A stretch of DNA of 7,715 nt, from positions 1 to 7,715 of the forward strand of contig JAENXP010000086.1 of the NCBI GenBank assembly GCA_016649475.1. Reading direction: 5' to 3'. Both the position numbers and the translations under genes were made by a program. The first letter of the stretch is position 1; each line of letters opens with the position of its first letter. Under the pieces are notes generated by a model. It saw only the letters and a program-made list of their open reading frames with translations. It ran no database searches and was not told the DNA's origin. The DNA comes from Burkholderiales bacterium (GTDB lineage Bacteria; Pseudomonadota; Gammaproteobacteria; Burkholderiales; SG8-39). Of this stretch, positions 1-7,715 are shown one piece after another.

Positions 1-64
1 ATTGCCGATGATGCGCATGTGCGGGACCGATGCGCCGCGGCTCTACGCGCGCGTACTGCCGCGC
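1..64. other. Stretch after the hyfI stop; no supported gene
   Basis: This is what remains of the window beyond the last operon gene. I see no hairpin followed by a T-run on the minus strand, so there is no visible intrinsic terminator and the transcript may continue past the edge. A minus-strand ATG at 18-16 opens a frame reading MRIIGN that runs off the window. It could be the start of another gene, but six codons without a clear ribosome binding site are not enough to call one. Confidence 0.4.
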
Positions 65-583
65 CTAGCTTTTGGCGTCGGCGGTGATCGCGGTGAGTAT
101 GCCCTGCATCAGCGCGGTCGGCGTGGGCGGGCAACCGGACACTGCTACATCGACTGCAATCACATTCGCGACTCGTCCGCAACTGGCGTAGCTCTCGCCG
201 AATATTCCCCCGGTGCAGCCGCAGTCGCCGACCGCGACTACGAGCTTGGGTGCGGGCATCGCATCGTAGGTGCGCTTGAGCGCGACTTCCATGTTGCGCG
301 CCACCGGCCCGGTTACCAGCAGCAGGTCTGCGTGGCGCGGGCTGGCGACGAACTTGATTCCCAGTGCCTCGATGTTGTAATAGGGATTGTTGAGCATGTG
401 AATCTCGAGTTCGCAGCCGTTGCAGGAGCCCGCGTCGACGTGGCGGATGGCGAGCGACCCGGCGAACATGCCGAGGATTTCCTGCTGCAGCTGCTGATTC
501 AGCACGCGCAATGCCTCGTCGGCCTGCGGCGGCGACTCGGTCTTGATGCCGACGCGAACGATCTGTCTCAGCAGTTGATACAT
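65..583 (-). CDS. hyfI: Hydrogenase-4-like small subunit (NuoB/HyfI family)
   Basis: 172 aa, a complete small subunit of the NuoB/HycG/HyfI family. In such complexes it sits at the membrane arm, against the large subunit, and carries one [4Fe-4S] cluster that is the last electron relay before the active site. The four expected ligands are visible: C54 and C57 in GSCNGCE, C121 in GDCGCTGG, and C151 in SGCPPTP. The CxxC spacing of the first pair is the hydrogenase type; complex I NuoB has adjacent cysteines. C123 and C135 are extra. There is no signal peptide or twin-arginine motif, so the protein should be cytoplasmic, as in group 4 enzymes. The ATG at 583 gives the N-terminus expected for the family, although the best Shine-Dalgarno-like sequence is rather far upstream. 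It is the last operon gene visible and is separated from hyfG by a 259-base gap. The family assignment is firm; the electron donor and acceptor are unknown. Confidence 0.93.
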   Translation of the reverse strand: MYQLLRQIVRVGIKTESPPQADEALRVLNQQLQQEILGMFAGSLAIRHVDAGSCNGCELEIHMLNNPYYNIEALGIKFVASPRHADLLLVTGPVARNMEVALKRTYDAMPAPKLVVAVGDCGCTGGIFGESYASCGRVANVIAVDVAVSGCPPTPTALMQGILTAITADAKS

Positions 584-594
584 GGTATTTGCAT
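568..594 (-). other. Possible 8-codon upstream ORF overlapping the hyfI start
   Basis: An ATG at 594-592 opens a frame reading MQIPCINC and stopping at TGA (570-568). It overlaps the hyfI start in another frame. The Shine-Dalgarno-like AGAAGGA at 603-597 lies 13 bases before the hyfI ATG, which is long, and only 2 bases before this ATG, which is short. It may be chance or may tune hyfI translation. There is no sequence evidence that it is translated. Confidence 0.15.
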
Positions 595-596
595 GG

Positions 597-603
597 TCCT
601 TCT
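597..603 (-). promoter_or_regulatory. Likely Shine-Dalgarno sequence for hyfI
   Basis: AGAAGGA on the minus strand is the only strong purine-rich ribosome-binding sequence ahead of hyfI. The spacing to the hyfI ATG is 13 bases, longer than the usual 5-9. No better in-frame start with family-like sequence is seen upstream, since the frame is closed by stops in the gap. Confidence 0.45.
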
Positions 604-655
604 ATGCGCCGCGACTCAGAACACGGCCCGCTATCCCCGCGTAATTGTCATTTCT

Positions 656-685
656 TTGCGCGGACGAAAAACCGTCCGTGCGCAA
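656..685 (-). repeat. Stem-loop in the hyfG-hyfI gap
   Basis: Read on the minus strand, TTGCGC-AC-GGACG pairs with CGTCC-GCGCAA around a six-base loop GTTTTT. That makes 11 base pairs with a two-base bulge. No T-run follows on either strand, so it is not a typical intrinsic terminator. It is one of two strong hairpins in the gap. Confidence 0.6.
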
Positions 686-712
686 TCGGCGATCTTGGAT
701 AACAGCAACCCC

Positions 713-724
713 AAACCCGGGTTT
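713..724. repeat. 12-base perfect palindrome AAACCCGGGTTT
   Basis: A perfect, self-complementary 12-base sequence between the two hairpins of the gap. Its two-fold symmetry could suit a dimeric DNA-binding protein, but no promoter is recognisable nearby, so any operator role is speculative. Confidence 0.4.
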
Positions 725-738
725 ATCAATAACCGTAT

Positions 739-773
739 TTTCCATACGGATGTGCTTTTGATCCGTATAGAAA
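739..773 (-). repeat. 13-bp stem-loop in the hyfG-hyfI gap
   Basis: On the minus strand TTTCTATACGGAT pairs with ATCCGTATGGAAA around a nine-base loop CAAAAGCAC. Eight inner pairs are perfect. The one imperfect position is a U-G wobble in minus-strand RNA but a C-A mismatch in plus-strand RNA, so the fold favours a transcript in the operon's direction. A further copy of the arm core, ATACGG, follows on the minus strand at 738-733. No T-run follows, so a simple terminator is unlikely. Confidence 0.65.
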
Positions 774-842
774 GTGCGGTTGGCGCGCGCAGCGCGCAAG
801 CCCTTTCGTGGCATGCGAGAGTAGTCAAAGCTGCGTACACAA

Positions 843-2387
843 TTACAGATCACAGCCCGAATACGACAGATTGAACGATTTGTTGATCAATGGAAAATCG
901 GGAACGATATTGCCGTTTACCGCAAACGCGAGTGCGGGCCAGTTTTGCCAGGAAGGATCGTGCGCATGGCAGCTGCGAATGCGGCCGTCGGCGCCCGATT
1001 CCAGCGCGACCACGGACTCTCCGCGCCAGCCCTCGACCCAGCCCAGCCCCATCCTGCCGGCGGGGATTTCAGGCAGCGGGGCCGCGATTTCGCCCGCGGC
1101 GATGTACTCGATCACGCTGCGGACCAGGCGCAGCGATTCGAAAATTTCTTCGAAGCGCATGATCACGCGCGCGGCGACGTCGCCGTTCTTGTGGGTTTGC
1201 ATGCGTGCGTCGAGCACGTCGTAGGGTGCCGGCCGGGCTTGAGCGCGCAAGTCCCAGGCCTGGCTGCTGGCGCGACCGGCGAGGCCGATCACGCCCAGTT
1301 TGCTCGCGGTGTTGGCGGTGAGCCGGCCGCAGGTGAGAAAGCGGTCCTGCAGTCCGGGATGGTCGTCGTAGATATCCTTGAGCAGGCGCACTTCGCGCTC
1401 GAGTGGGTCGCACTCGGCGCCGATCGCATCGAGGCCGGCGCGCCCGGGCTCGCAGGCGACACCGCCGGGGACGATGCAATCCATCATGTAGCGGTGGCCG
1501 AAAAGCTTCGCGTTCAAGCGCAGCACGTCCTCCTTCAGCCGCATGAACTGCGCCAGACCGAAGGCGAGGCCGCCGTCATTGCCCAGATAGCCGAGGTCTC
1601 CGAGGTGGTTGGCGATGCGTTCGCGCTCGAGCATGAGCGCGCGCAGCATGAGCGCGCGCGCCGGCGGCGCCACCGCGGCGATGCTCTCCAGCGCCATGCT
1701 GTAGGCCCAGGCGTAGGTTACGGTGCTGTCGCCGCTCACGCGACCCGCGAGCCGCGCGCCTTCTGCCAGCTCCATGCCCTGGAAGCGTTTGTCCACGCCC
1801 TTGTGCGTGTATCCCAGATGCTCTTCCAGGCGCAACACCTTCTCGCCGACGATGGAGAAACGGAAGTGGCCCGGTTCTATGGTTCCGGCATGCACCGGGC
1901 CTACGGGAATCTCGTGCACACCGTCTCCGGCTACCGTAGTGAAGGCGTAGTCGTCGCCGCCTTGTGCAAAAACCGTCGCCGCTGCTGCGTCGTGTCGCAG
2001 GGGCTGGTCCGTGTCCTGCCAGGCGGCATGTCGCAGCCAGGGCCGCCGGTCCGCAGCGTCTGCATCGATACCGAGCAGATCGCGCGCGGCTCGCTGCATG
2101 CGATGCGCGGGATAGAAAATCGGCGACAGATCCGGATAGTGCGGCTGGTCCGCGGGCAGCGCGCTGCGCAGCCACAGCATGCCTTCGGGTTTTGCCAGCG
2201 CGAGGTGCAGCACATAGCCCTGGCCGTGGTCCTGTTCGTCCGTGCCCCATAGGGCGGCAAGGCGCCCGCCCTGGTCTTTTACCGCATGGCAGATGTCCGG
2301 CAGTTCCGCCGCCGTAGTCTGTCCCTGCCACGCCGGCACCGCCCCGGGTAGTTCACTCAGATGCAGCGGTAAGCTTTCAAACGCCAT
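843..2387 (-). CDS. hyfG: Hydrogenase-4-like large subunit without NiFe ligands (NuoC-NuoD type)
   Basis: 514 aa, homologous to HycE/HyfG and complex I NuoCD. Residues 1 to about 150 form a degenerate NuoC-like domain (YPDLSPIFYPAHR at 84-96). Residues from about 155 are the NuoD/large-subunit domain, with GPVHAGTIEPGHFRF at 163-177 and EEHLGYTHKGVDKRFQG at 188-204. In NiFe hydrogenases this domain binds the metal centre through RxCGxC and DPCxxC. Here those sites read RVSGDS (216-221) and DPSWQN (477-482), so all four cysteines are missing. The protein ends FNLSYSGCDL with no maturation tail. It therefore cannot be a normal NiFe hydrogenase and fits the Ehr group of hydrogenase-related complexes; the real substrate is unknown. 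By hand alignment the quinone-site tyrosine of complex I NuoD is also absent (G219 in its place). The start is supported by GGAGG 11 bases upstream. hyfF ends 21 bases before it, and a 259-base gap follows it. Confidence 0.93.
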   Translation of the reverse strand: MAFESLPLHLSELPGAVPAWQGQTTAAELPDICHAVKDQGGRLAALWGTDEQDHGQGYVLHLALAKPEGMLWLRSALPADQPHYPDLSPIFYPAHRMQRAARDLLGIDADAADRRPWLRHAAWQDTDQPLRHDAAAATVFAQGGDDYAFTTVAGDGVHEIPVGPVHAGTIEPGHFRFSIVGEKVLRLEEHLGYTHKGVDKRFQGMELAEGARLAGRVSGDSTVTYAWAYSMALESIAAVAPPARALMLRALMLERERIANHLGDLGYLGNDGGLAFGLAQFMRLKEDVLRLNAKLFGHRYMMDCIVPGGVACEPGRAGLDAIGAECDPLEREVRLLKDIYDDHPGLQDRFLTCGRLTANTASKLGVIGLAGRASSQAWDLRAQARPAPYDVLDARMQTHKNGDVAARVIMRFEEIFESLRLVRSVIEYIAAGEIAAPLPEIPAGRMGLGWVEGWRGESVVALESGADGRIRSCHAHDPSWQNWPALAFAVNGNIVPDFPLINKSFNLSYSGCDL

Positions 2388-2398
2388 GTGGTTCGAAT

Positions 2399-2403
2399 CC
2401 TCC
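2399..2403 (-). promoter_or_regulatory. Strong Shine-Dalgarno sequence of hyfG
   Basis: GGAGG on the minus strand, 11 bases before the hyfG ATG, in the 21-base space after the hyfF stop. It is the clearest ribosome binding site in the operon and supports ATG 2387 as the start. A site of its own may let the large subunit be made at a higher rate than the membrane subunits. Confidence 0.6.
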
Positions 2404-2408
2404 GGATC

Positions 2409-3863
2409 TCATCCGATCAGCTTCGCCGCTTCGCGGTACCAGTCGACGAGGTAAGGCGGAATGTAAAACCCGAGCGCCAGCACGATCGCGAGGTGCGCGA
2501 ACACCGGGACCAGCGCCGGCGGGTGTGGCAGGCGCTTGGCATTGGTCTCGCCGAATACCATCGGCTGCACCTTGCTGAACACCGCCGCGAATGCCACGCC
2601 CAGGGCGATCAGGAGGAACGGCGTCGCCCAGGGCTGCTGGCGCATGGCGCTGGTGAGTATGAGGAACTCGCTCGCAAACACACCAAAGGGCGGCAGGCCG
2701 AGAATCGCGACCGTTCCCAGCATCAGGCCCCAACCCACCGTGGGGCTGACTTTCATCAGCCCGCGAATGTCGTCCATGATCTGTGTCCCGGCCTTTTGTG
2801 CGGCATGGCCGACCGCAAAGAATATCGCGCTCTTCGTGAGGGAATGCACCGTCATGTGCAGCAAGCCGGCGAAGTTGGCCACGGGACCGCCCATGCCGAA
2901 GGCAAAGGTGATCAGTCCCATATGCTCCACCGACGAATAGGCGAACATGCGCTTGATGTCCTTTTGCCGCGACAGGAAAAAGGCCGCGACCACCACCGAT
3001 AGCAGGCCGAAGCCCATCATCAGGTGGCTGGCGAAGGGCGCCTGCAGGGCGCCGTCGACCAGCACTTTGCAGCGCAGAAGTGCGTACAGCGCGACGTTGA
3101 GCAGCAGGCCCGAGAGCACTGCCGACACCGGCGTCGGGCCTTCGGCATGGGCGTCGGGCAGCCAGTTGTGCAGGGGCACCAGCCCCACCTTGGTGCCGTA
3201 GCCCACCAGCAGGAACACGAACGCAAGCGACATCACCGTCGGCTCCAGGCTGCCGGACACCGCCTCCAGCCGCGTCCACAGGAGCGCGTGGCCGCCCGAG
3301 CCCAGCACCTTTTCCGAAGAGGAGTAGAGCAGGATGGTGCCGAACAGTGCCTGGGCGATGCCTACGCCGCAGAGGATGAAATATTTCCACGCCGCTTCCA
3401 GGCTCGCCGGCGTGCGGTACAGGCTCACCAGCAGGACGGTGGTGAGCGTGGCCGCCTCCAGCGCCACCCACAGGATGCCGAGATTGTTGGTCAGCAGCAC
3501 CAGCAACATGGTGAACACGAACAGCTGGTACATGCTGTGAAACAGCCGCAGCCGGTTGTCGGACAGCTTGCCGTGCGCGTGCTCGATGCGCATGTAGGGG
3601 CGCGAGAACAGCGACGTCGTCATGGAAACGAACGCGGTGAGCGCGACCAGGAACACATTGAGCGAGTCGACGAAGAACTGCTCGTCCGCGGTGACCAGGG
3701 GACCCTGCGAGATTACCTGCGCGGTCAGCGCCGCCGCAGCGATGAACGTGGCGATGCTCATGGCGATGTTCAGGCCCGCCGCCCAGTTCTTGTGTCCCCA
3801 CAGTGCGAGCAGGATTCCGCCCAGAAGCGGCGTGCCCAGTACAAGATAGAGTTGCCAGTTCAT
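2409..3863 (-). CDS. hyfF: Hydrogenase-4-like subunit F (NuoM/NuoN-like antiporter subunit)
   Basis: 484 aa, very hydrophobic and full length for HyfF, a polytopic inner-membrane subunit of the Mrp/NuoLMN antiporter family that is thought to move protons or sodium ions. Family marks, by position: E136 in VALEAATLTT (the glutamate of transmembrane helix 5), K225 in GYGTKVGLVPLHNWLPDAHA (helix 7 lysine), GPTPVSAVLSG at 242-252, SSVEHMG at 310-316, K344 in HSLTKSAIFF, and GLPPFGVFASEF at 389-400. Where HyfB has a lysine (MLKTAIY), HyfF has an asparagine, N256 in LLLNVALY; from memory this is usual in HyfF-like proteins. The gene starts 28 bases after the hyfE stop with only a weak ribosome binding site (GGG), which suggests translation coupled to hyfE. 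hyfG follows after 21 bases. The HyfF assignment rests on the motifs, length and operon place. Confidence 0.93.
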   Translation of the reverse strand: MNWQLYLVLGTPLLGGILLALWGHKNWAAGLNIAMSIATFIAAAALTAQVISQGPLVTADEQFFVDSLNVFLVALTAFVSMTTSLFSRPYMRIEHAHGKLSDNRLRLFHSMYQLFVFTMLLVLLTNNLGILWVALEAATLTTVLLVSLYRTPASLEAAWKYFILCGVGIAQALFGTILLYSSSEKVLGSGGHALLWTRLEAVSGSLEPTVMSLAFVFLLVGYGTKVGLVPLHNWLPDAHAEGPTPVSAVLSGLLLNVALYALLRCKVLVDGALQAPFASHLMMGFGLLSVVVAAFFLSRQKDIKRMFAYSSVEHMGLITFAFGMGGPVANFAGLLHMTVHSLTKSAIFFAVGHAAQKAGTQIMDDIRGLMKVSPTVGWGLMLGTVAILGLPPFGVFASEFLILTSAMRQQPWATPFLLIALGVAFAAVFSKVQPMVFGETNAKRLPHPPALVPVFAHLAIVLALGFYIPPYLVDWYREAAKLIG

Positions 3864-3891
3864 GCGGACCCGGCGGAATGCGGAGGGTGTT

Positions 3892-4554
3892 TCATTCTTC
3901 CTTCAATTTCTCCAGGTGGCTGATGTCCAGGCTGTCGAAGCGCTCGCGGATCTGGAAAAAGAACACGCCCAGAATGACCATGCCCACCAAAACGTCCAGG
4001 GCGATGCCGAACTCGACCACCATGGGCATGCCGTAGGTGGCGCTGGTGGCGGCGAAAAACAGGCCGTTCTCCATGGCGAGAAAGCCGATCACCTGCGGTA
4101 CCGCCTTGGAGCGGGTGATCATCGTGAGGAAGGCGAGCAGCACGCAAGCGAGCGCGATGCCCAGAGTGCTTTTGGTGATGGTGCCGGCGAGCTGCGAGAT
4201 CGGCAGGGCCACGTTGAACGCCAGGATTACAAGCACGATGCCGACGAGCATGGTGGCGGGAATGTTGATCAGCGTCTCCACGTCCCACTTGACGTTGAGC
4301 TTGCGGATCAGGCGGTGCAGCACCCAGGGGAGAATCAGCACTTTGAGCACGAAGGTCAGCGCCGCCGAATAATACAGATGATGCTGCGCGGTGCTGAAGG
4401 CCACCACCAGGGTCGATAGTGTCAGCGTCAGTCCCTGCAGCGCGAACAGATTGATGAGCGACAGGATGCGCCGCTGCGTCAGCATGGCGAAGGAAAGCAG
4501 CAGCAGCATCGCGGCAAGCAGGTTGATGATCTGCGAAGCGAGGGACAGATGCAC
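3892..4554 (-). CDS. hyfE: Hydrogenase-4-like subunit E (NuoK-like membrane subunit)
   Basis: 220 aa with about six or seven predicted membrane helices, the usual HyfE length. The second half resembles complex I NuoK, which links the redox-coupled part to the antiporter-like subunits. E162 in AMENG and E181 with D187 in VVEFGIALD are acidic residues within membrane helices, as expected for the charged path in NuoK. The N-terminus ASQIINLLAAMLLLLSF is typical of the family. The C-terminal tail from about 201 (QIRERFDSLD onwards) is charged and should be cytoplasmic. The start is GTG at 4554, one base after the hyfC stop, with GGAA a suitable distance upstream inside hyfC, so translation is probably coupled to the end of hyfC. 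Because hyfC carries an early stop 237 bases before its normal end, that coupling could be weakened. Confidence 0.92.
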   Translation of the reverse strand: MHLSLASQIINLLAAMLLLLSFAMLTQRRILSLINLFALQGLTLTLSTLVVAFSTAQHHLYYSAALTFVLKVLILPWVLHRLIRKLNVKWDVETLINIPATMLVGIVLVILAFNVALPISQLAGTITKSTLGIALACVLLAFLTMITRSKAVPQVIGFLAMENGLFFAATSATYGMPMVVEFGIALDVLVGMVILGVFFFQIRERFDSLDISHLEKLKEE

Positions 4555-4555
4555 G

Positions 4556-5506
4556 TCAGGTTTCCAGCAGGAAGTGGATCAGCATCGCCAGCACCGCCAG
4601 CAGGAAGGCCGTGCCGAGGTACTCGGGGGCGCGGAAAATGCGCATCTTGGCGCTCACCATTTCGATCACTGCCATGGCGAAGCCGCCGACGGCGAGCTTG
4701 GCCACGAGCGCGGGCAGCGCCAGCAGCAGACCGAGCGCATCGCCGCCCTCGGCAATGCCGAACGGGAAGAACAGCGCTATGCCGATGCACGATTAGACGA
4801 AGAGCTTGAGCGCCGCGGACCACTCGATCAATGCCAGGTGACGCCCGGAATATTCCAGCACCATCGCCTCGTGGATCATGGTGAGCTCGAGGTGCGTGGA
4901 CGGATTGTCCACTGGTATGCGTGCGTTTTCGGCCAGCGACACCATGGTGAACGCAATTCCGGCGAAGGCAAGGCTGGGGTAGATCACGAAGTCCGCATGC
5001 GCGAGGTACTGGACGATGGTGGCGAGCGAGGTCGAATGGGAAATCAGCGAGGCGGTGAACAGCGTCATCAGCAGCGCCGGTTCGGCAAGAAAGCCCACCA
5101 TCATTTCGCGCCGGGCGCCGAGCGAACCGAAGGCGGTGCCGACGTCCATGGCGGCGAGCGAGATGAATACCCGCGCCAGGGCGAATATGCCCACCAGAGC
5201 GATGGCGTCGGCGGCGGGCGAGAAAGGCAGGTCGGTGCCGAGTATCGGGACGATGGCCGCTGCCAGGCACATGCAGGAGAACAGCACATAGGGCATGACG
5301 CGGAACAGGGGCGACGCACTGTGCGCGAGCACCGCCTCCTTCGCGAACAGCTTCCTCAGGGTGCGGTAAGGCTGCAAGATGCCCGGGCCGCTCTTGTTCT
5401 GCAGCCACGCGCGGCACTGGTTGACCCAGCCCAGCAGCATCGGCGCGAGCAGCACCGCGAGCACGATCTCGGTGAGTTGGGCGACCAGTCCGGGCCAGGA
5501 AATCAT
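4556..5506 (-). pseudogene. hyfC: hyfC-like NuoH-family membrane anchor, interrupted by an in-frame TAA
   Basis: Read through, this frame has 316 residues plus one stop, about the normal HyfC/NuoH length. The NuoH/HyfC family anchors the FeS and large subunits to the membrane and forms the junction to the ion-pumping arm. Family marks: QNKSGPGILQPYRTLRKLF (36-54), AFGSLGARREMM (125-136), E195 in LAENARIPVDNPSTHLELTM, and HEAMVLEYSG (212-221). After LKLFV (233-237) codon 238 is TAA (4795-4793). The same frame then continues for 78 recognisable residues (SCIGIALFFPFGIAEGG, and RAPEYLGTAFLL further on) to TGA at 4558-4556. No frameshift is seen; one base change would explain it. The stop removes roughly the last two membrane helices. 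It may be a real nonsense mutation or a base-calling error; the intact neighbours favour an error or a very recent mutation. The start ATG overlaps the hyfB stop by four bases (ATGA). Confidence 0.85.
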
Positions 5507-7503
5507 CTGACGAACAACAGCAGCACGAGCAGCGTGACAAAACTGTACATCAGGTACACCGAGATGCGGCCGCGCTGCAGCAGGGTCACCACCCGGGTGA
5601 GCGCTTCGGTGACTTTGGCCAGCGGCAGATACAGCCAGTACCAAAAATGATCCTCGACGGTGACGCGGTAGCGCGGTGCCGCGTCGAACTGCGTGGGCAG
5701 CTCGCGTTTCATCCGGAAAAACGGTTCGAATACCTGGCGGATCGGCTGGCCGAAGCCTTCGGCGGTGTCCTGCATGCGTGCGGTCTGCGCCGGGAAGCCG
5801 CAGTCCCAGGGCGGCGCGCGGCGCACGCGGCCGTGGTAGAAGCGGCGTACGGCGAGCCAGGTCGCGAGCCATACCGCCAGGATCACGAGCAGGAACAGGA
5901 ACGGCGCGTAGCTCGCGCGGTCCGGACTGATCGGCGCGAGGAACATCCAGCTGGTCGCGTCGGCGCCCAGCGTTTTGCCAAGCAGCTGGCCCGTGACCGA
6001 GTCGATGACGCCGATAACCCACACCGGCGCCACCCCCAGCGCGAAGCAGCCGGCCGCAAGCCAGATCAGTCCCGCGCGCTCCCAGATCCCCGCGTCATGC
6101 GCTTGGTTCAGGTGTTCTTCGCGCGGTTGGCCCAGAAACACCACGCCGTAGAACTTGACCATCACGTAACCTGCCAGCGCCGCCGCGAGCGCGACCGCGG
6201 CCGCGGCGACCGGGATCAGCATGTTCAGATAGGGATGCGGGAGGTTGGGCGTGAACAGAAAGGCCTGCAGCAGCAGCCATTCGGAAACGAAGCCGTTAAG
6301 GGGCGGCAGTCCGGCAATGGCGAGGGTGCCTACCAGCGCCAGCCAGGCGACCCAGGGCATGCGGTGTATCAGCCCGCCGAGCTTGCCCAGTGCGCGCTCG
6401 TGCGTGGCATGCAGCACGGAGCCCGTGGCAAGAAACAGCAGGCTCTTGAAGTAGGCGTGATTGATGCAATGGTAAAGCGTGGCTGTGAGCGCGAGCGCGG
6501 CGAGTGCGCGCATGCCGAACGACTGGAATATGACGGTGAGACCCGCGCCGACCAGGATGAAGCCGATGTTCTCGATCGAGGAATAGGCGAGCAGGCGTTT
6601 CATGTCGCTTTGCACCGCGGAAAATACGACGCCATAGAGCGCGGACGCGAGGCCGAGCACCAGGATCACCACGCCCCACCACCACACCTGTGTGTGCAGC
6701 AGGTCGAAAAGCACGCGCAGGAGCCCGTAAATCGCGGTTTTCAGCATTACCGCGGACATCAGTGCCGACACCGGCGAAGGCGCTGCGGGGTGCGCCTCGG
6801 GCAGCCACACGTGCAGCGGCAGCATGCCGGCCTTGGCGCCGAAACCGAACAGGGCCAGCGCGAACGCGACCGTGGCCCAGAGCGGCGCGAGCTGTACCGA
6901 GCGCATGTTGTCGAAGGTATAGTCGCCGGTGCCGTGCAGCAGGCCGAAGCAAAGCAGTATGCCGATGGCGCCGACGTGGGCGATAAGGAGGTAGAGAAAG
7001 CCGGCGCGCCGAATCTCGGCCTTGGTGTGGTCGCTGGTGACGAGGAAATAGGAAGACAGCGCCATGGTCTCCCAGAACACCATGAAGCCGTAGGCGTCGT
7101 CGGCCAGCAGCACCAGCGCCATGCTCGCGATGAACACGTGGTAGTAGAGGCATTGCAGCCCGGGCGGCGTGCCTTCGCCGCGGCGAAAGTAACCCGCTGC
7201 GAACACCGAGATGCCCGCGGTGACGGTGCCCAGCAGCAGCAGAAAAAATGCGGAGAGCGGATCGAGCCGAAGATGGAAGGGCAGGTCGGGCAGGCCCAGC
7301 GGCAACACCAGCGACTGGGTGGCACCGCCCAGGGCATTGAGCGCCGCCGCCGCCAGCGCGAGCGCCCCCAGCGCGCCCGCGGGAAACAGCACCCGGCTCA
7401 CCAGGTGCAGATTGCGCGGATAGAATACGCCCGCCAGCCCGAGCGCGAGCCACAACAGGATCACGCCCAGAATCAGCTGCAAGGCTGAGCCGGGTGCGGG
7501 CAT
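5503..7503 (-). CDS. hyfB: Hydrogenase-4-like subunit B (NuoL/NuoM-like antiporter subunit)
   Basis: 666 aa, the usual HyfB length, an inner-membrane subunit of the Mrp/NuoL antiporter family thought to translocate ions. Residues of the ion path are present: E145 in FWETMALSSY (helix 5), K224 in FGAKAGMLPLHVWLPEAHP (helix 7), K255 in AVMLKTAIYG (helix 8), and H349 and K353 in CINHAYFKSLLF. SSIENIG (308-314) and GLPPLNGFVSEW (398-409) are further family marks. After the 14-helix core comes the HyfB-specific C-terminal part: a helix near 532-553, APPWDCGF (563-570), a soluble segment, and a final helix at about 648-664. The ATG at 7503 overlaps the metG stop as TAATG and has little ribosome-binding sequence of its own, so it probably relies on ribosomes finishing metG. 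Its stop overlaps hyfC by four bases. It is the first gene of the operon and one of only two antiporter-like subunits here. Confidence 0.95.
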   Translation of the reverse strand: MPAPGSALQLILGVILLWLALGLAGVFYPRNLHLVSRVLFPAGALGALALAAAALNALGGATQSLVLPLGLPDLPFHLRLDPLSAFFLLLLGTVTAGISVFAAGYFRRGEGTPPGLQCLYYHVFIASMALVLLADDAYGFMVFWETMALSSYFLVTSDHTKAEIRRAGFLYLLIAHVGAIGILLCFGLLHGTGDYTFDNMRSVQLAPLWATVAFALALFGFGAKAGMLPLHVWLPEAHPAAPSPVSALMSAVMLKTAIYGLLRVLFDLLHTQVWWWGVVILVLGLASALYGVVFSAVQSDMKRLLAYSSIENIGFILVGAGLTVIFQSFGMRALAALALTATLYHCINHAYFKSLLFLATGSVLHATHERALGKLGGLIHRMPWVAWLALVGTLAIAGLPPLNGFVSEWLLLQAFLFTPNLPHPYLNMLIPVAAAAVALAAALAGYVMVKFYGVVFLGQPREEHLNQAHDAGIWERAGLIWLAAGCFALGVAPVWVIGVIDSVTGQLLGKTLGADATSWMFLAPISPDRASYAPFLFLLVILAVWLATWLAVRRFYHGRVRRAPPWDCGFPAQTARMQDTAEGFGQPIRQVFEPFFRMKRELPTQFDAAPRYRVTVEDHFWYWLYLPLAKVTEALTRVVTLLQRGRISVYLMYSFVTLLVLLLFVR

Positions 7504-7715
7504 TATTTGACTTTCATGCCCGGTTGCGCGCCGCTGTCGGGGGCGAGCAAATAGATGCCAGGCGTATCGCCCGACGCCCCTTTTGGGTCGCCGCTGGCCC
7601 GTTGTTGGTCGCCGCTAGCGGCGAGCACCATCCCTTGCGACAGGCCAAATTTCATTTTGCGCGGAGCAAGGTTGGCCACCATTACGGTCAAGCGGCCCGC
7701 AAGCAGAGCCGGGTC
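7503..7715 (-). CDS. metG: Methionyl-tRNA synthetase, C-terminal end (partial)
   Basis: The last 70 codons of a gene that enters from beyond the right edge; no start lies in the window. The sequence [20 protein letters not shown] followed by QGMVLAAS, and [15 protein letters not shown] at the end, match the EMAP/Trbp111-type OB-fold at the C-terminus of bacterial MetRS. That domain dimerises the enzyme and helps bind tRNA(Met); the catalytic part is off the window. The frame is open to the edge, so the internal TTG at 7691 should not be taken as a start. The loop between GMVLAAS and [10 protein letters not shown] is enlarged by a three-copy ASGD repeat, while family members usually have a short loop here. 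The TAA stop overlaps the hyfB ATG by one base, which puts the hyf operon directly behind a housekeeping gene. An isolated tRNA-binding protein cannot be excluded from this fragment, but metG is much more likely. Confidence 0.88.
7557..7619 (-). repeat. Three-copy 21-base in-frame repeat inside metG
   Basis: Three consecutive 21-base units encode [14 protein letters not shown] and ASGDTPG. The first two units are close at DNA level (GCTAGCGGCGAC and GCCAGCGGCGAC); the third has drifted (GCGTCGGGCGAT). The repeat adds two seven-residue steps to a surface loop of the OB-fold. Slippage or unequal crossing-over keeps the reading frame because the unit is a multiple of three. Confidence 0.75.

Follow-up and report, generated by a model that had tools for sequence, protein, structure and literature searches.

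In this study, we analysed a stretch of 7,715 nucleotides from a Burkholderiales bacterium (contig JAENXP010000086.1 of assembly GCA_016649475.1; the whole stretch is called the window), which carries on its minus strand an operon, hyfBCEFGI, for a hydrogenase-like membrane complex whose large subunit, HyfG, has lost all four cysteine ligands of the [NiFe] centre. We tentatively read it as a six-subunit complex of the energy-converting hydrogenase related (Ehr) type that acts as a redox-driven ion pump and not as a hydrogenase, and that was recruited to inorganic-carbon uptake in some RuBisCO-bearing relatives; we put the probability of this reading at about 40%. Ehr complexes lack the [NiFe] CxxC motifs and have no established function (PMC10284858, PMC4378227; here and below, publications are cited for those passages of their text that were available to us), and they are suspected to be ion-coupled oxidoreductases (PMC6349859). 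The lineage-limited linkage of Ehr operons to SulP, carbonic anhydrase and RuBisCO genes, which a first-pass annotation of this DNA had not anticipated, is the new element of this study. A published link of Ehr to carbon uptake was found in none of the open-access literature matches listed, which is no proof of its absence from print, and the available part of a 2024 minireview on the dissolved inorganic carbon toolkit does not mention 'hydrogenase', 'complex I' or 'NDH-1' (PMC10880623).

The large subunit and its partners

HyfG (843..2387, minus strand) is an intact open reading frame of 514 amino acids, a NuoC/NuoD fusion with the Pfam domains Complex1_49kDa and Complex1_30kDa. Its best sequence match in the PDB is Escherichia coli HycE (7z0s_E, E 5e-51), and its predicted fold also resembles HycE best (Foldseek E 1.3e-27, TM 0.84), with NuoCD of E. 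coli complex I next (1.7e-19). HMMER and MAFFT alignments concur in placing the HycE ligands C241, C244, C531 and C534 on S218, S221, S508 and G511 of the window protein, and thus the replacement is Ser/Ser in the first motif (L1) and Ser/Gly in the second (L2). The first-pass annotation had correctly located L1 in RVSGDS (residues 216-221, 1725..1742, minus strand) and had rightly concluded that all four cysteines are missing. Its Ser/Ser pair stands; its Ser/Asn pair does not, as DPSWQN (residues 477-482, 942..959, minus strand), which it took for L2, is a conserved stretch that aligns to AATYAN of HycE and to APSFVN of Thermus NuoD. This candidate was rejected; the true L2, NLSYSG (residues 506-511, 855..872, minus strand), lies about 30 residues downstream of it, and the protein ends three residues further on.

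The replacement is shared by nearly the whole family. The locus collection kept 80 of 573 loci, and the MAFFT alignment took in E. coli HycE, HyfG and NuoCD together with 145 distinct HyfG rows, that is the window and the stop-free profile matches above 200 bits from the fetched loci, with duplicate loci excluded. Among the 142 rows with letters at the four ligand places (window included), the pattern is S,S,S,G in 111 and C,C,C,C in one, and all others hold at most one Cys; the second L2 position is Gly in 141 of 143 rows. No alignment brought four cysteines to the ligand positions of the window protein, none of which holds a Cys. Cys512 adjoins a ligand position, one place off, in a column where His (60 rows) and Gln (44) are the commonest of 143 letters. 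The HycE-type C-terminal propeptide after L2 is absent as well: the HycE tail past R537 comprises 32 residues, while 144 of 147 HyfG matches end within one codon of the profile end, the matched stretches of the other three ending early. However, the tail is a weak hydrogenase marker because the protein of the four-Cys row lacks it too. This row (locus L017, 2223-3584) adjoins an Ehr operon on the same contig. The locus carries tandem operons at 8-4392 and 4798-12197, one of the four-Cys hydrogenase type (RICGVC ... LCYSCTDR, no tail) and one of the Cys-less Ehr type, and provides a natural pair for comparing the Cys-bearing and Cys-less states. Rooting the HyfG tree on E. coli HycE and HyfG unites 63 Cys-less rows in a single group (support 99), next to which the four-Cys row stands on a long branch. 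Divergent second copies of the Ehr operon were seen at L119, L168 and L169, and genomes G130, G177 and G102 carry two kinds each.

Around the emptied site, parts of a hydrogenase survive. E171 corresponds to HycE E193, the proton-relay Glu of hydrogenases (142/142 rows), and R455 to the canopy residue R478 (143/143); the roles of the proton-relay Glu and the canopy residues have been described for HycE (PMC9474812). Asp220 is present in 141 of 142 rows, the sole row without it being the four-Cys one. The canopy residue N506 (139/143) is D529 in HycE and Glu in the four-Cys row; a second one, N260 (141/143), is S283 in HycE and Asn in the four-Cys row. Asn502, Lys503, Ser504 and Tyr509 are found in all 143 rows, the four-Cys row included, and positions 502 and 503 are Ile and Gly in E. 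coli HycE and HyfG. In this alignment, D220 and N506 appear to track the loss of the cysteines, the remaining lining being shared with the four-Cys relative or with hydrogenases. A complex I-type quinone site in HyfG was rejected, as the quinone-binding His and Tyr of complex I fall on I170 and G219 (142/142 rows each).

The partner subunits keep their cluster ligands and channel residues. The small subunit HyfI (65..583, minus strand; Pfam Oxidored_q6) retains the predicted proximal [4Fe-4S] ligands C54, C57, C121 and C151, which are invariant in 143-145 rows and have the CxxC spacing of HycG at C54/C57; the consecutive Cys pair of the NuoB type is absent. In the NuoL-like antiporter subunit HyfB (5503..7503, minus strand; NCBIfam hydrogenase 4 subunit B, 928 bits against a cut-off of 667), E145, K224, K302, K353 and E408 are conserved (126-128 rows, at most one exception each), as are E136, K225, K304 and E399 in the antiporter subunit HyfF (2409..3863, minus strand; NCBIfam hydrogenase 4 subunit F, 883 bits against 543; 137-139 rows, at most two exceptions each). 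These channel residues include equivalents of NuoL/NuoM E144, K229/K234 and NuoM E407. They support the earlier proposal of ion transport by the complex, and by sequence a coupling of this transport to a redox reaction is plausible. Assignment to the Ehr type is likewise borne out by a hyfBCEFGI set that combines a Cys-less, group-4-like large subunit and a group-4-like small subunit with antiporter-like membrane subunits. The warning that 'hydrogenase 4' and 'formate hydrogenlyase' are misleading labels also applies, these being the very names that NCBIfam and JGI give to the family. The large subunit itself is a well-conserved member of a known family without established function.

Inorganic-carbon genes in the window's order

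An Ehr large subunit was detected in 54 of the 200 genomes sampled from the order (match above 480 bits; two are contig-end fragments), G004, G137, G172 and G185 being scored negative with matches of 223-255 bits only. Form I/II RuBisCO occurs in 38 of the 54 Ehr genomes and in 37 of the other 146 (odds ratio 7.0, Fisher P 9e-9, kinship uncorrected), where 13 genomes with only RuBisCO-like matches of 206-235 bits were scored negative and G166 positive on a 137-bit fragment. A SulP gene lies within 8 kb of 15 of 57 Ehr operons, compared with 0.51 expected from SulP density (split matches counted once; distances from the operon ends estimated via the HyfG position; the expectation does not cover the 1.1 kb of slack that they have on one side). 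All 15 belong to the 40 operons in RuBisCO genomes, none to the 17 elsewhere (P 0.0025), and they span six families. Canonical nuoD, which is also present in 53 of the 54 Ehr genomes (the exception being the window's own incomplete genome), served as control and was never found within 15 kb of SulP (0/57).

Carbonic anhydrase genes recur in the same neighbourhoods. A gamma carbonic anhydrase of the CcmM/Cam type was found at L118, L123 (about 6 kb off, cut), L125, L153, L158, L160 and L161 among the 55 order loci, and also at L024, L030, L031 and L032. A CsoSCA-like carbonic anhydrase is present at L121, L126 (split in two frames), L148, L158 and L025 and, outside the order, at L187, where it has no Pfam match. 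In the ten gamma sequences that are not cut, R.D, NIQDG and three His are conserved, as are CxDxR and H...C at the six CsoSCA-like loci that cover this region; we take these motifs to be the zinc ligands. Furthermore, cbbL, cbbS or cbbQ lies within about 10 kb at L030, L031 and L111. The window's own genome encodes a RuBisCO large subunit together with cbbS-like and LysR-type genes. In the HyfG tree L117 is the sister of the window (SH-aLRT 90), and the next node (92) joins a four-genome family with SulP or carbonic anhydrase neighbours at all its operons.

Direct neighbours were tallied from our own gene calls (proteins of 100-900 amino acids), with two genes per side in RuBisCO genomes (125 of 126 proteins, one HyfF row being removed) and in a class-wide sample (101 proteins), and three per side in RuBisCO-free genomes (71 of 71). 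Common flanks in RuBisCO genomes are methionyl-tRNA synthetase (8 of 125), SulP (8), a NUBPL/Mrp-type ATPase (7), cobalamin adenosyltransferase (7) and hexapeptide proteins (6); the synthetase, the ATPase and the adenosyltransferase look like housekeeping neighbours. SulP is not among the 25 commonest flank families of the 71 proteins from RuBisCO-free genomes. A Kup-type K+ transporter (4), UbiD (5) and short-chain dehydrogenases (5) were seen there (alignment A3, n=71). Recurrent genes of the wider neighbourhoods, at L008, L071, L086, L088 and others, are spermidine-synthase-like (19 loci) and YoaK-like (12 loci).

Based on these data, the complex might work as follows. A soluble low-potential carrier would hand electrons directly to HyfI, because the operon encodes no HyfH/NuoI-like ferredoxin subunit. 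The HyfG pocket would then turn over a small polar molecule other than H+, which is probably no quinone either, and HyfB, HyfF and HyfC would convert this turnover into a gradient of H+ or Na+. In autotrophs, the gradient or the local chemistry could drive bicarbonate import by SulP, with carbonic anhydrase working alongside. Bicarbonate is proposed as the SulP substrate because of the neighbouring genes.

Weighing the carbon link against other explanations

Several observations weigh against recruitment to carbon uptake. The class-wide draw comprised 275 genomes, of which three from the window's order were left out (E up to 1e-110 for Ehr and 1e-70 for RuBisCO). Outside the order, RuBisCO is found in 18 of 33 Ehr genomes and in 112 of 239 others (P 0.46), SulP stands beside one of 34 operons (L182), and no neighbour family accounts for more than two of the 101 flanking proteins. 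The exception, L182 (genome G369), is a truncated operon in which hyfG and hyfF are followed by the SulP gene. Even within the order, 16 of the 54 Ehr genomes lack form I/II RuBisCO. Six annotated plasmid copies, from Variovorax, Burkholderia, Methylocalor, two Rhizobium and Methylovirgula, consist of the six genes and show no carbon-uptake neighbours in their incomplete gene tables. The window itself has no SulP or carbonic anhydrase neighbour, its contig ending 64 nucleotides after hyfI. Inheritance within lineages could explain part of the SulP linkage, as 12 of the 15 cases fall in three families, and the independent tree pairs, three in number, are too few for a test. The scores of the SulP proteins fall far short of the BicA cut-off, and therefore their substrate could be sulfate. 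Within HyfG, the four-Cys relative shares N260, N502 and K503, which are therefore no mark of a new reaction. The AlphaFold model (pLDDT 78.5, pTM 0.84) drops below 50 at residues 146-197 and 490-514, so that the predicted structure is unreliable exactly at the pocket loops. Finally, because of an in-frame stop in hyfC, described below, the window's copy of the complex may not work. Since both the RuBisCO and the SulP link fail class-wide and the plasmid copies lack carbon neighbours, the carbon link is at most a recruitment in some lineages and not the general function of Ehr.

It is possible, though we regard it as doubtful, that the complex is a general respiratory Ehr that reduces quinone with electrons from formate dehydrogenase, CO dehydrogenase or ferredoxin and pumps ions, its SulP and RuBisCO neighbours being lineage-inherited. 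The lack of any carbon-gene association outside the order fits this. A complex of formate dehydrogenase and Ehr was proposed in sibling lineages of Cyanobacteria (PMC6349859), CO dehydrogenase adjoins hyfBCEFGI in Ca. Nitrospira nitrosa (PMC5596200), and a putative molybdo-oxidoreductase gene, read by eye with no profile run, lies near L009. However, HyfG has neither of the complex I quinone ligands in any of the 142 rows, and the 25 neighbour families found most often in the order (125 and 71 flanks) include neither formate nor CO dehydrogenase, although short-chain dehydrogenases do occur (5/71). Inheritance of neighbours also sits poorly with nuoD of the same genomes, which is never near SulP.

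A more specific proposal, which we consider unlikely, is that Ehr joins NDH-1MS and DAB as a third energy-coupled complex for concentrating inorganic carbon, in which the emptied HyfG pocket works on CO2/bicarbonate or powers a SulP bicarbonate importer, its partner being the CcmM-type gamma or CsoSCA-like carbonic anhydrase. Such a pocket may combine the invariant basic residues R455 and K503 with the proton-relay E171, Asp220 as a new residue and the Ser that replace Cys. The vectorial carbonic anhydrase complexes NDH-1MS and DAB likewise have complex I-type pump subunits and a tie to inorganic carbon and autotrophy (PMC13144422). In contrast to them, the operon encodes no CO2-hydrating subunit of its own and no DabA-like subunit (no CupA search was made), and carbonic anhydrase-like neighbours occur at some loci only. 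A partnership with DabA was rejected, as DabA and Ehr do not co-occur in the order (10/54 vs 30/146, P 0.84).

The state of the window's own operon raises a further, rather unlikely explanation, namely that the complex of this genome is out of use. The NuoH-like hyfC (4556..5506, minus strand) has an in-frame TAA at 4793-4795, which is codon 238, while the homologous frame continues to a stop at codon 317; Pfam NADHdh matches the first 237 residues. In addition, a dispersed repeat (656..828, no strand assigned) sits in the gap of 259 nucleotides that separates hyfI from hyfG. It has 79 matches or pieces, itself included, in its own genome (E up to 10), the best being about 80% identical over 165 nucleotides, and it looks like a miniature mobile element. 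Inverted-repeat arms are present at 731-751 and 761-781. The gap is unusual: measured between profile ends, an equally long one occurs at one of 55 order loci, and it is at most 33 nucleotides at 35 of them. The hyfC stop is either an assembly error or a sign of an interrupted gene. Uninterrupted hyfC relatives of 316 amino acids exist, up to 97% identical, and because the contig comes from a draft assembly of 864 contigs a single-base error is possible. Moreover, the other five subunits are open, and the tested key residues are kept in HyfB, HyfF, HyfG and HyfI. The earlier statement that the sequence is not decaying therefore holds for hyfG and not safely for the operon.

We regard as improbable a sulfur-linked complex that would reduce polysulfide or another sulfur compound in the manner of the membrane-bound sulfane reductase (MBS) of Pyrococcus furiosus, with SulP importing sulfate. 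For MBS, a related complex free of Ni, the structure has been solved and the reaction is known (PMC7684303), and, like the window complex, it lost the [NiFe] centre and kept the pump; SulP neighbours were seen in Thiobacillus and Sulfuriferula records. However, in MBS two of the four Cys remain, the proximal cluster has three Cys and the proton Glu is missing (PMC7684303), whereas the window complex is the reverse, with no ligand Cys in HyfG, the Glu kept and all four cluster ligands of HyfI in CxxC spacing. Several of the SulP genes also sit with carbonic anhydrase-like and cbb genes.

The presence of HypD bears on whether Ehr could still be a hydrogenase. A HypD match (E 1e-30) was found in the window's own genome and in 35 of the 54 Ehr genomes of the order, compared with 31 of the other 146; the correlation is confined to RuBisCO-positive genomes (32/38 vs 15/37). 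A [NiFe] hydrogenase with non-cysteine ligands, for which this correlation and the retained proton Glu and canopy Arg might speak, is hardly credible and was rejected, given Gly at the second L2 position in nearly all rows, the 19 Ehr genomes without a HypD match (some of them incomplete) and the missing correlation in RuBisCO-negative genomes (3/16 vs 16/109).

Operon organization, known systems and meaning

The window comprises the entire contig C417 of a draft metagenome-assembled genome (3.67 Mb, 864 contigs, completeness 83%, contamination 6%). On the minus strand it reads from the 3' end of a likely metG through hyfB, hyfC, hyfE, hyfF and hyfG to the gap and hyfI. The membrane subunit gene hyfE (3892..4554, minus strand) matches NCBIfam NF008556 with 101.5 bits, under the cut-off of 136, and has no Pfam match. 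Directly upstream of the operon and outside the complex, a gene with a tRNA-binding domain (7503..7715, minus strand; Pfam tRNA_bind) is likely metG, since methionyl-tRNA synthetase flanks Ehr operons elsewhere. Its stop codon touches or overlaps the start codon of hyfB (7501-7505), and thus co-transcription of hyfB with the likely metG is possible. No HyfA, HyfD, HyfH/NuoI, formate dehydrogenase or hyp gene was found among the open reading frames of the window, which holds no HyfJ either; the operon contains no NADH module, and an Rfam search gave no match. The order B-C-E-F-G-I is conserved in 50 of 55 order loci, the remaining five being cut by contig ends, and in 28 of 34 loci of the class sample.

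Among known systems, the Ehr complexes of comammox Nitrospira and Sulfobacillus resemble the window complex in their group-4-like large subunit without CxxC and their antiporter-like subunits (PMC10284858, PMC4378227), and the same hyfBCEFGI set was reported for Nitrospira (PMC5596200). In contrast to these published Ehr, which were compared by description only, those of the window's order are partly linked to SulP, carbonic anhydrase and RuBisCO. With formate hydrogenlyase/hydrogenase 3 and hydrogenase 4 of E. coli, the complex shares the CD fusion, the proton Glu, the canopy Arg and a CxxC-type small subunit. However, compared with E. coli HycE/HyfG and their systems, it lacks the four [NiFe] Cys, the C-terminal extension, HyfA, HyfD, HyfH, HyfJ and hyp genes. 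The fold and the pump residues are common to respiratory complex I (NuoB, NuoCD, NuoH, NuoL, NuoM, NuoN), whereas the quinone His/Tyr, the tandem Cys and the NADH module of complex I are missing.

Annotations of Ehr complexes often read hydrogenase 4 or formate hydrogenlyase, and no reaction has been established for these complexes. A Mycobacterium tuberculosis Ehr was judged to be no hydrogenase, as maturation genes are lacking (PMC6728331). The Sideroxydans cluster GALL_all_03470 to 03520 was read as formate hydrogenlyase (PMC5178258), and we infer that it is of the Ehr type. If our reading is right, metabolism of H2 or formate should not be deduced from Ehr genes in the way it was for this cluster (PMC5178258). 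The alignment reveals what replaced the ligands at the [NiFe] site and which parts of the hydrogenase survived. Because some Ehr operons are linked to SulP, carbonic anhydrase and RuBisCO genes, the role of the family becomes testable in culturable autotrophs. If the proposed recruitment is true, chemolithoautotrophs would have a further, redox-driven way of supplying themselves with inorganic carbon.

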